A stretch of 64,000 bases of DNA, from NCBI GenBank assembly GCA_017617235.1, contig JAFZWQ010000025.1, positions 26,926 through 90,925 on the forward strand, written 5' to 3'. Shown here piece after piece: positions 12,856-50,428 of this stretch. Every line of letters starts with the position of its first letter. Position 1 is the first letter of the stretch. Origin of the DNA: Bacteroidaceae bacterium. GTDB taxonomy: Bacteria; Bacteroidota; Bacteroidia; Bacteroidales; Bacteroidaceae. The notes under the pieces are model-generated. The model ran no database searches. It had not been told where the DNA came from and saw only the letters and a program-made list of their open reading frames with translations. The translations under genes and the position numbers were made by a program.

Positions 12856-12885
12856 TTTTCGGCTGTTTTTTCTGTTTTTTGTAAA

Positions 12886-12920
12886 AACTAACGGCTAAAG
12901 GCGAATGGCAAAAGGCAAAA
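12886..12920. repeat. Heptad array bordering composite repeat locus A
   Basis: Units AACTAAC, GGCTAAA, GGCGAAT, GGCAAAA and GGCAAAA run directly into the composite repeat that begins near 12933. Confidence 0.7.
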
Positions 12921-12932
12921 GGGTTTCCAATG

Positions 12933-13172
12933 GAGCGATGCGACGCTGGGGCGGAGGGATAGCAACCTTACTGCGATAGGATAGTAACGCTTCGCTTGAC
13001 ACACAATTGTGTGACAAGGGAAGGGATAGTAATCCTAGGCAGGGAGGAATAGTAACGCTAGGCTTGTCACACAACTGTGTGTCAAGAGACGCGACGCATC
13101 GTTACCGACGGAGCGTTGCAACGCTAAGCGGGTAGCGTTGGGACGCTAGACGGGTAGCGTTGGGATGCTACC
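12933..13172 (+). repeat. Composite intergenic repeat, locus A
   Basis: This stretch holds no gene. It contains an AGCGATGCGACGCT unit (12934-12947), a 24-bp dyad at 12995-13018 (CTTGA, CACACAATTGTGTG, ACAAG) and a second dyad in inverted orientation at 13063-13086. Three 22-bp units follow, whose AGCGTTG starts lie at 13112, 13134 and 13156. Each unit carries an AGCGT...ACGCT stem (one has GATGCT) and an 8-nt spacer. Loci B and C repeat this plan with identical 22-bp spacing. Confidence 0.85.
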
Positions 13173-15048: not shown

Positions 15049-16596
15049 TTAATGTCCGGCACTCTGTATCATCCTCGCATTGGGCTCAGGTATGGGCACA
15101 TAGCGGAAATAATGGTAATAGGTGCCAGGCAGACATTCCTCGTCTGGAACCTGCCCCTGGGTCTGCAGCAAGCGGTAGGCCTGGGCATAGGCGGCAGGCA
15201 GCGGATTGGGCAGCAGGTCGGGGAAGCCATGAACGACGGCGTTAAAATGCGGCAGATTCTTCTGGAGCAGCAGTCCACACAACAGGAAGTCGTAAACACG
15301 CCGACGATTGCATCGGGTGTTCTGCAACAGGCGCACCATCTCGGAATTGAAGGGATAGCCGCCCACGAAATTATCGGCACGCAGGGGAGTTTCGAACTTC
15401 ACTTCCGTCCGCTGACGGGCCATGCGTTCGCGCTGCTCCCGGACAAAGCGACCATAGAAGGGCGCATGGTCGAGGATGGTCAGAAACTTCTCGGCCACGT
15501 CGTATTCTCCTTCACGAATGGAGTAGTCCACCATCTGGGTGAGGGAAGAGAAACAACAGGCATCGGGCATCAGGAGAAAATATTCCTGGGCATGATGGAA
15601 TGCCTCGTCCCACAGCTCCAGATTACGATAATAAAGACGGTTGAACTGACAAGTCAGCAAGTTACGTTCGTGATAATAGAAGAACTCCTCTGGCGTATTA
15701 ATGGAATAGGAGAACAGATTTTCGGGCAACGTGCCCATAGCACTCTCGGACAGCAACAGGTATTTCTGCATCAAGCCTGTGTGCATACGGCCACTCTCGC
15801 GAACGGCAACACGCATATCGTTCCAACGTTCCTCCTCTGCTGCATGCACCACGCGGAAGTACATATTCTGTTCGCGTAATTCCTCGCTCCACAAAGGCAA
15901 TGCAGCATCTAGTGCCCCTGACTGGTAGCGGTCCTCAAAAGGAATGAAAGCAACACGCTGGCTATAGATGGGCGGCAACATGAGGGAACAGAACGCCAGC
16001 AACACTACGACTGCCACACGGCTGCGACCCTTATGTACAAACCACTCGACAGCGGCAAACAAGACGAACAGGGCGATGAGAAACGGCATGCTGACCAACA
16101 TATAGCCCAACGGCAATAGCAGGACGGCCCATGCCAGACGCGCCCACCAACGCGGCAAACGGCAATAGATCAGCAGCACGAAGGCCAATAGCAGCACCTG
16201 AAGCTGCATCAACAGCACAAAGGGCCATACACAAAGTAAGATGAGGGACGGCAGCAGGACCAGTAAGTCGAAACGGCGATTATTTGCAGGAAGCATCTGG
16301 CGCAGACATTGCACCGTAAGCCATGCGATGAGTCCCTGAATCAGGGCCCCTATTAGCGGCCAATGGAAGAATTGCGTCAACAAACTGGAAAGCCAGCTCG
16401 AGACAGCAGGCTGCATGGGAAGTTTGAAACGGAAATAATCGACCGTAAACAGAAAGAAGCTGTCGTCTTGCAGGGAAAGATAAGTATCGGTAAACCAACA
16501 GGACAGCGCCACATAGGGTAAGAGGCAAACGGCTAACGACGAAAGGCAAAAGGCCAAAGGCGATAGGCTAAAGGCTAAGGACTTATCTTTTTTCAT
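15049..16596 (-). CDS. DUF6057-like multi-pass membrane protein
   Basis: The 515-residue protein has about six membrane segments in residues 10-215 followed by a soluble helical C-terminal half. It matches my recollection of Bacteroidales DUF6057 proteins; function unknown. The first membrane helix (LAFSLSPLAFCLSSLAVCLL) is encoded by a run of 7-nt units (TTAGCCT-like), giving a visible 7-residue periodicity in the protein. Its ATG overlaps the stop of the preceding CxxCH lipoprotein gene by 4 bp. Confidence 0.7.
   Translation of the reverse strand: MKKDKSLAFSLSPLAFCLSSLAVCLLPYVALSCWFTDTYLSLQDDSFFLFTVDYFRFKLPMQPAVSSWLSSLLTQFFHWPLIGALIQGLIAWLTVQCLRQMLPANNRRFDLLVLLPSLILLCVWPFVLLMQLQVLLLAFVLLIYCRLPRWWARLAWAVLLLPLGYMLVSMPFLIALFVLFAAVEWFVHKGRSRVAVVVLLAFCSLMLPPIYSQRVAFIPFEDRYQSGALDAALPLWSEELREQNMYFRVVHAAEEERWNDMRVAVRESGRMHTGLMQKYLLLSESAMGTLPENLFSYSINTPEEFFYYHERNLLTCQFNRLYYRNLELWDEAFHHAQEYFLLMPDACCFSSLTQMVDYSIREGEYDVAEKFLTILDHAPFYGRFVREQRERMARQRTEVKFETPLRADNFVGGYPFNSEMVRLLQNTRCNRRRVYDFLLCGLLLQKNLPHFNAVVHGFPDLLPNPLPAAYAQAYRLLQTQGQVPDEECLPGTYYHYFRYVPIPEPNARMIQSAGH
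16513..16580. repeat. Heptad array encoding a transmembrane helix
   Basis: Read on the minus strand, units TTAGCCT, TTAGCCT, ATCGCCT, TTGGCCT, TTTGCCT, TTCGTCG, TTAGCCG, TTTGCCT follow each other without gaps. They form the 5' end of the DUF6057-like gene. Confidence 0.8.
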
Positions 16597-26417: not shown

Positions 26418-26562
26418 GTAGCGTGAACTGCTGTGGAGCGATGCGACGCGCCTCTTGACACACAGCTGTGTGACAAGCGAAGCGATACTATTCCTCTGCG
26501 CCTAGCGTTGTAACGCTCCGCCCCTAGCGTTGGGACGCTCGGACGGTAGCGTTGAAAACGTG
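26418..26562 (+). repeat. Composite intergenic repeat, locus B
   Basis: An AGCGATGCGACGC unit (26437-26449) is followed by the 24-bp dyad at 26454-26477 (CTTGA, CACACAGCTGTGTG, ACAAG) and three 22-bp units with AGCGTTG at 26504, 26526 and 26548. Compared with locus A the dyad centre is changed from AATT to AGCT, which keeps the symmetry. No gene lies between 26276 and about 26946. Confidence 0.85.
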
Positions 26563-49934: not shown

Positions 49935-50146
49935 AAAACATATACCTATATACCTAGACAGGGCTGCATATACGATGAATAAAGGGATGAAGGCACGGTA
50001 CATGTTGCAGAACATATACCTATGATGTACCTTAATATGTATTGAAGAGGTATATGTTAGGTACATGTTGACAGACATATACCACCTCTATTTCCCTTTA
50101 TTTATCGGCCTTATAGGCCAGTTGAGGTATATGGGTATATGTTTTC
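49935..50146. repeat. Long imperfect inverted repeat (about 210 bp)
   Basis: The outer arms are AAAACATATACCTATATACC (49936 on) and its near-complement near 50124-50145. Inner matches follow in nested order: GAATAAAGGGA near 49977 with TCCCTTTATTT near 50090, and AACATATACCT near 50010 with AGGTATATGTT near 50068. The stretch has no gene and could form one long stem. It lies directly before locus C, as the inverted repeat at 26572 lies directly after locus B. Confidence 0.75.
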
Positions 50147-50153
50147 TGAAAAA

Positions 50154-50180
50154 GGCTAAGAGAAAAAGGCAAAAGGGGTT
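50154..50180. repeat. Heptad array at the left edge of locus C
   Basis: Units GGCTAAG, AGAAAAA, GGCAAAA and GGGG lead into locus C; a matching array (GGACTAA, CGGCTAA, CGGCGAA, AGACAAA) lies at its right edge, 50367-50397. Confidence 0.65.
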
Positions 50181-50366
50181 CACGCGGAGTGACGTGTTGA
50201 TGGGGGTGAGATGACGCGTGAACTGGTGCGGAACGACGTGTCGTTTCGCTTGACACACAATTGTGTGACAAGGGAAGGAATACTAACGCTACCGACGGAG
50301 CGTTGTGACGCTAGGTGGGTAGCGATGTGACGCTCGGGCGGTAGCGTTGGGACGCTCCGCTTAAAG
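50180..50366 (+). repeat. Composite intergenic repeat, locus C
   Basis: The 24-bp dyad at 50249-50272 is identical to the first dyad of locus A. Three 22-bp units follow, with starts AGCGTTG at 50299, AGCGATG at 50321 and AGCGTTG at 50343. The first unit is preceded by TACCGACGG as in locus A. The gap from 49856 to 50428 contains no gene. Confidence 0.85.
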
Positions 50367-50428
50367 GGACTAACGGCTAACGGCGAAAGACAAAGGGTGA
50401 GGTAGAAGAGGGGTGCCGCAGCTGTCGA

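Follow-up and report, generated by a model that had tools for sequence, protein, structure and literature searches.

The repeats at three loci of the window, the 64,000-nucleotide stretch of a Bacteroidaceae genome analysed here, can tentatively be regarded as dispersed nucleoprotein sites, in which a 24-bp dyad (D) and a lattice of shorter units would be held by a sequence-specific protein. The likeliest binder seems to be a chromosomal protein that combines HU-HIG (PF18291) and winged-helix parts. We rate this reading at slightly less than an even chance. Binding, the identity of the binder, autoregulation and co-evolution are what we infer from comparison of sequences.

The initial annotation had described a common plan at loci A (12.93 kb), B (26.42 kb) and C (50.18 kb), and this plan is present as claimed. 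In all three loci, D is followed by three AGCG(T/A)TG units at steps of 22 and 22 bp; the centre differs between D copies (AATT in the first D of A and in C, AACT on the plus strand in the second D of A, AGCT in B); locus A carries a second, inverted dyad, and TACCGACGG stands ahead of the first unit in both A and C. Other parts of the description have to be amended. The arms of D are near-symmetrical, but one arm mismatch (TTGAC vs. GACAA) is found in all 43 copies of the genome. The array does include the dyad and three units, but it is longer, since D is bordered on both sides, at exactly 3 nt, by 15- and 14-mer units not named before, AGCGATACTATTCCT being an example of the former and AACGACGTGTCGTT of the latter. 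The AGCGT...ACGCT stems of the units exist but are often imperfect, the commonest 15-mer, AGCGATACTATCCCT (16 of 87), having a C-C mismatch. The location at 3' ends of genes holds loosely within the window, but genome-wide 11 of the 42 arrays with a classified context, among the arrays listed, lie between divergent genes (genes were predicted with a codon-usage script and contexts are approximate).

Locus A begins on the left with the 14-mer unit AGCGATGCGACGCT (12934–12947), followed by AGGATAGTAACGCT (12978–12991) at 3 nt from the first D (12995–13018, AATT centre). Two 15-mer units, AGGGATAGTAATCCT (13022–13036) and AGGAATAGTAACGCT (13045–13059), separate it from the second D, which is on the minus strand (13063–13086), the pair being 68 bp apart; then come CGCGACGCATCGTT (13090–13103), 3 nt from the second D, and three 22-bp units with 8-bp spacers (13112–13125, 13134–13147 and 13156–13169, together 13112–13169). 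Locus B consists of the left unit AGCGATGCGACGCG (26437–26450), D with the AGCT centre (26454–26477), the 15-mer AGCGATACTATTCCT (26481–26495) and three 22-bp units starting at 26504, 26526 and 26548 (26504–26561), the last with a broken right arm. Locus C similarly has the left unit AACGACGTGTCGTT (50232–50245), D with the AATT centre (50249–50272), the 15-mer AGGAATACTAACGCT (50276–50290) and three 22-bp units starting at 50299, 50321 and 50343 (50299–50356). All these features were read from the sequence and, except for the second D of A, are on the plus strand; the D copies of all three loci also came from a genome-wide motif search. A long inverted repeat lies just before locus C (49935–50145; 98-nt arms, 70% complementary, 15 nt apart), and degenerate repeats of the GGCTAAA/GGCAAAA type occur near several arrays (12882–12915, 16520–16574, 50143–50176 and 50364–50397).

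Further copies, expected by the initial annotation, were indeed found in the source genome (2.54 Mb in 50 unordered contigs, 85.5% complete), with spacing and dyad conserved. D, CTTGACACACA-NN-TGTGTGACAAG, has 43 copies, 42 of them exact and one without NN; the gapped search that returned the latter also permitted symmetrical arm forms, and all 43 copies still had one mismatch. The 22-bp core TTGACACACANNTGTGTGACAA occurs exactly 42 times, the reversed-pattern control not at all, and D copies with one or two mismatches were absent from this genome, besides the core's own reverse complement. The centre of the exact copies is AT or GC, and GT once. The unit pair AGCGTTGNNACGCT-N8-AGCG (up to one mismatch, both strands) gave 99 matches in the source genome, 0 in the reversed control and 0–2 in each of 138 other genomes of the genus, mostly in a conserved AGCGTTGATACGCTGRATCC which we take to be coding sequence. 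Exact copies set against empty reversed controls show that D and the unit arrays exceed chance.

At least 56 arrays of the source genome were collected and parsed into 140 14-mers, 87 15-mers and 42 D. The gap between units is 8 nt in 138 of 145 cases, 30–31 nt in six, which leaves room for one unrecognised unit, and 7 nt in one; the gap between D and a unit is 3 nt in 63 of 68 cases and 25 nt (3+14+8) in five. Because 3+24+3 = 8+14+8, D fills one lattice position, and the lattice is composed of unit-8-unit and unit-3-D-3-unit with centres about 22 bp apart. Two D are present at 11 loci, 67–68 bp apart, inverted in 10 of the 11, with an AT centre paired with a GC centre in nine. The invariant first and last letters of the units carry no weight as evidence, since the search expression fixes the arm alphabet. 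By eye, the array ends resemble half units. Several arrays also appear by eye to abut other shared intergenic sequences (L083, L091 and L093; L010, L029 and L030; L022 and L084; L074 and L089), and the intergenic regions of this genome look like mosaics of several repeat families.

A search of 138 further genus members and 197 further genomes of the order found no own core, even with one mismatch allowed. Neither the GTDB r220 collection nor viral contigs, both of which may omit records of the source species, contained the exact core, and D, the unit pair, the D-pair plan and the locus-A sequence had no match in viral, plasmid and phage collections. The idea that D is unique to this species is true of its own sequence; it fails for a relaxed core, CTTGNCNNACANNTGTNNGNCAAG (one mismatch), which is present at 74 places in the relative G096, 16 in G118, three in G025 and three in G127. 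Single matches in ten further genomes are probably mostly chance, since the reversed control also yields singles in six genomes. The few D of G127 and G110 are mostly diverged singles. The arms of D are species-specific, being mostly CTTGACGCACA in G096, CTTGTCCCACA in G118 and CTTGTCCGACA in G025, and the plan D-3-unit-8-unit-3-D, with units of 14 or 15 bp, is kept by pairs in all three. The source genome has 11 pairs (gap of 43 in eight, 44 in three), G096 has 35 (43 in 23, 42 in 12), G118 six (42) and G025 one (42). The G096 units AACGACGCGTCGTT and (G/A)ACCATACTATGGTT match the own units AACGACGCATCGTT and AGGAATAGTAATCCT in place and type. A scan of 84,980 species genomes for D pairs, which demanded an exact core and did not return G118, gave 36 stretches, 35 in the MAG RUG12892 and one in the roe deer MAG RGIG4312, all with a gap of 42–43, though 40–46 was permitted. 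The proposal that the dyad mismatch is essential was rejected: it is at position 5 in the source genome, at position 8 in G096 and G118, and absent in G025. In G118 (L233–L239) the centre of D is often an AAGGG/CCCTT variant, and direct orientation occurs in several of the pairs.

The distribution of variability suggests selection in place on putative protein-binding DNA, with a near-invariant D beside variable linkers. Among 23 G096 elements of the 14+15 type, the mean pairwise difference is 0.008 in the D arms, 0.077 in U1, 0.113 in U2 and 0.123 in the spacer, as compared to 0.40–0.55 in the 3-nt linkers and 0.58 in the terminal units. The eight own elements of this type gave 0.00–0.02 for the D arms, 0.06 and 0.07 for the inner units, 0.32 for the spacer, 0.17–0.55 for the linkers and 0.46–0.53 for the terminal units. 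Adjoining nucleotides of D arm and linker in G096 differ about fifty-fold in variability, a contrast expected from separate protein contacts with free linkers and not from recent identical copies. Alternatively, the differential conservation could come from linkers set at insertion. Information content around D in G096 drops from 0.65 bit at 15 nt to 0.11 at 16 nt; the element boundary is not clean, since information recurs further out (0.37 bit at 26 in G096; 0.72 at 28 and 30 in 22 own flanks). The protein-binding array, the first reading offered initially, is favoured, and at the level of DNA, by the alternation of half-sites along the fixed lattice, by the nearly invariant D as opposed to the variable linkers, and by the many copies flanked by divergent genes, a setting in which transcripts are less to be expected.

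The candidate binder is a protein of about 205 aa with an HU-HIG domain and a C-terminal winged-helix-like part. Its gene is located at 1667–2284 of L003 in the source genome, at 2279–2887 of L258 (minus strand) in G096 and at 349–960 of L235 (minus strand) in G118, with a D pair 76, 98 and 84 bp upstream of the start codon, respectively. The three proteins match PF18291 with E-values of 1.7e-10 to 6.8e-13 and 41.5–49.2 bits vs. a gathering cut-off of 26.2; the C-terminal part gives weak matches of MarR/GntR/AbiEi type, below cut-off. The protein looks fast-evolving across these three congeneric species, judging by pairwise identities of 47–59%; LemA of the source genome and G096 are 94% identical, and alignable neighbour proteins have a median identity of 78–80% (28 and 11 proteins, paralogues included). 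The other neighbour of this D pair is lemA in the source genome and G096; a LemA match was absent in G118 among the loci examined. The second D of the G118 pair has diverged, two core letters being different. The position of the pair by this gene in three species may reflect simple inheritance.

The HU-HIG gene was noticed by eye in neighbour lists rather than through a planned test. Among four other HU-HIG genes in the genus sequence examined, two are preceded by a strong array of 21 or 23 bp (period 21 in G032, 0.88; period 23 in G050, 0.97), one in G110 has a weak array (0.64) and one in G118 has none. Among 315 gene starts preceded by a large gap, 22 have such an array, and against this background P is about 0.03 for two of four; the gene model was trained on the window, and the samples that supplied the 315 starts also supplied the four genes. 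This enrichment is weak, and the candidate binder should be taken as a lead and not as proof. A survey of the clades of the HU/IHF superfamily reportedly exists; no assignment of target sites to HU-HIG proteins was found in the literature, subscription papers being mostly beyond the search.

The proposed mechanism starts from the lattice of palindromic units with centres about 22 bp apart, in which one or two D would serve as anchors in some species. Twenty-two base pairs make about two helical turns, so the sites would face roughly the same side of the helix. D would be held by a sequence-specific and probably dimeric protein, and the weaker units to its left and right by further molecules of it or of a partner. 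The HU-HIG/winged-helix protein would bend or wrap the DNA and bind its own upstream region. If the binder evolves quickly together with its sites, this would explain the species-specific D arms. Binding may shape local chromosome architecture, provide insulation, or merely allow a selfish family of sites to persist. Since D is scarce or diverged in G025, G127 and G110, the D system looks dispensable.

A REPIN- or MITE-like non-autonomous element, with inverted D ends about 67 bp apart that a transposase or recombinase copies in trans and with single-D arrays as remnants or rearranged copies, is possible, if on balance unlikely. Such mobility had been suggested at the outset, and copies are indeed dispersed and lineage-specific; they are also extragenic, their pair geometry resembles that reported for REPINs, and D copy number is strongly unequal among related species. 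Positional conservation is low as well: 12 own loci have G118 counterparts, and of the ten viewed, one had a 22-bp array and one a D pair (two of the ten matched on both sides). Neighbour-gene BLAST between species found few shared loci, flagging the HU locus of the source genome and G096 via LemA (L235 was outside the input). Comparisons with G118 and G110 gave no clean pair of filled and empty sites. As a separate observation, homology breaks exactly at the D edge beside a peptidase-like gene (L299 at about 15614 in G110 vs. L268 at 5942 in G096), and a pantothenate-kinase-like gene of G110 ends at this breakpoint in L299 (names by eye).

Several results stand against such an element. The RAYT/REP system was rejected: PF01797 matches 62 of 139 genus genomes at E 0.001 (53 above cut-off), but not the source genome, and among this genome, G096, G118, G025, G110 and G127 only the last has a match, at 21.2 bits and below cut-off. 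A serine recombinase (PF00239) was rejected too, being found in 22 of 139 genus genomes, with one match in G118 and none in the source genome or G096; the genomes negative for either family are 61–87% complete. Most D variation sits at the central dinucleotide, and a variable central dinucleotide recalls the crossover cores of serine recombinases. The 35 G096 elements had no excess of target-site duplication over one flank shuffle (k 3–9). Finally, recent copies ought to have common linkers, but the linkers differ.

It is improbable that D and its lattice serve some host factor other than HU-HIG, one acting on the nucleoid, on segregation or on supercoiling. Known analogues would be matS, SBS and gyrase/IHF sites. 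Strong constraint on D, fixed spacing and dozens of sites per genome by functionally unrelated genes (names mostly by eye) would agree with such a factor, but the patchy occurrence among relatives, with few and mostly diverged singles in G127 and G110, is unlike an essential function. A regulon reading was rejected, as the neighbouring genes are miscellaneous (names by eye, save for genes compared with Pfam). Of the 35 G096 elements, 32 could be classified (12 divergent, 16 codirectional, 4 convergent); the G096 baseline includes the element-bearing gaps and is not independent, and the genus baseline is separate. Of the 43 gene starts that face a G096 element, 36 are 80–300 bp away from it; for 25 facing gene ends the distance is 12–225 bp.

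Tandem 22-bp arrays of a looser type and unrelated sequence are frequent in the genus. In a scan of lags 11–60, the lag was 22 in 14 of the 28 arrays found over 400 kb of G118. A first genus sample had 11 such arrays among 30, in 10 of its 20 regions, and four of these 20 (G020:C3, G025:C7, G056:C28 and G110:C38) had been chosen for arrays already seen. A second sample had 11 among 32, in 8 of its 20 regions; here four of 20 genomes (G020, G027, G099 and G133) had arrays elsewhere and gave three of the 11. Twenty genomes outside the genus gave 2 of 14, and a block shuffle of the window, G118 and the first genus sample gave none. In the genus samples every one of the 36 lag-22 arrays is extragenic by the gene predictions, against 37 of 54 arrays of other lags; the contexts of the former (10 divergent, 16 codirectional and 4 convergent of 30 classified) match the baseline (71/149/34 of 254). 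The D system is kept apart from this wider class because consensus units there are not clearly palindromic as a group (6 of 37 significantly so at period 22/23, with three loci entered twice, vs. 3 of 20 at other periods), and the two may be separate things. The clpB intergenic region holds a D pair in the source genome, different period-22 arrays in G118, G025 and G133 and, by eye, an array of period about 23 in G096; six of ten relatives viewed (G095, G029, G131, G127, G008 and G103) have no array there. In most relatives shown, a motif close to TTGTCGnnTTnnGTGACAAnnTGGCAA is found upstream of clpB, just before the variable array position (L032 1395–1690, L102–L112), and is by eye a possible heat-shock operator.

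The near-perfect tandem repetition of unrelated sequences in many genus arrays is what minisatellites born of slippage without function would give, with a 22-bp period common by chance or mutation bias; this explanation is very improbable, as it accounts neither for D and the 3-nt registers nor for one period across unrelated sequences. The structured RNA or 3'-UTR hairpin array, the second reading offered initially, is hardly credible: the units can form short hairpins and the arms of own 14-mers covary (z of 8.7 over 140 units, 4.5 over 68 distinct ones), but covariation is absent in own 15-mers, G096 inner units and terminal units, copies occur in divergent contexts, and Rfam at the gathering threshold yields only 5S rRNA and tRNA in the window, with no match at the array loci.

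Returning to protein-held sites, a broader and rather unlikely possibility is a genus-wide, unnamed class in which HU-HIG proteins with a sequence-reading domain would each have a dispersed family of phased palindromic lattices, use one of these for autoregulation and evolve fast in concert with their sites, the sequences being specific to species and the ruler of about 22 bp common. By analogy, it would, with the same reserve, be a bacterial counterpart of rapidly evolving centromere or satellite DNA plus its binding protein. If the reading of D and its lattice as HU-HIG sites is right, a Bacteroidales HU-type protein family gains predicted target sites, and fast co-evolution of a chromosome protein with dispersed repeats becomes a testable case. 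Even with the wrong binder, the exact 14+8 / 3+24+3 architecture, common to species of differing sequence, is a clean handle on this repeat class; descriptions of such repeats in Prevotella or Bacteroidetes were not found in the literature, most subscription papers being beyond the search.

Among known systems, REPINs are pairs whose two invariant ends are inverted, with the first residues standing 71 bp apart in SBW25 GI, according to the portions consulted of Bertels and Rainey 2011 (PMC3116915). To that extent D pairs are alike: they are extragenic and dispersed, their two ends, at a distance of about 70 bp, are inverted in 10 of 11 own pairs and more conserved than the spacer (35 G096 pairs have a gap of 42/43), and they have one associated gene. 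However, D-rich genomes (61–87% complete) have no RAYT/Y1 gene above cut-off, the D system has a rigid 22-bp lattice of further dyads with fixed 3-nt and 8-nt registers, and its associated gene encodes an HU-HIG and winged-helix protein, not a transposase. REP palindromes each have a GTAG or CGTC tag at one end, in the part of the account used here (PMC3733652); directly beside D itself a fixed tag seems absent, the adjoining linkers varying by 0.40–0.55. The BrickBuilt MITE of Porphyromonas gingivalis, as partially consulted (PMC4596501), has intergenic tandem 23-nt repeats, with 19 copies in ATCC 33277, and is restricted to P. gingivalis and P. gulae; its direct repeats number up to 22.8, and its leader and tail carry IS5-like terminal inverted repeats. 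It resembles the present arrays in its tandem intergenic repeats of about 22/23 nt in a Bacteroidales genome, but neither a D dyad nor a 14+8 lattice figures in its description, as far as compared. The candidate binder, for its part, is by profile score a member of the HU-HIG family (PF18291).
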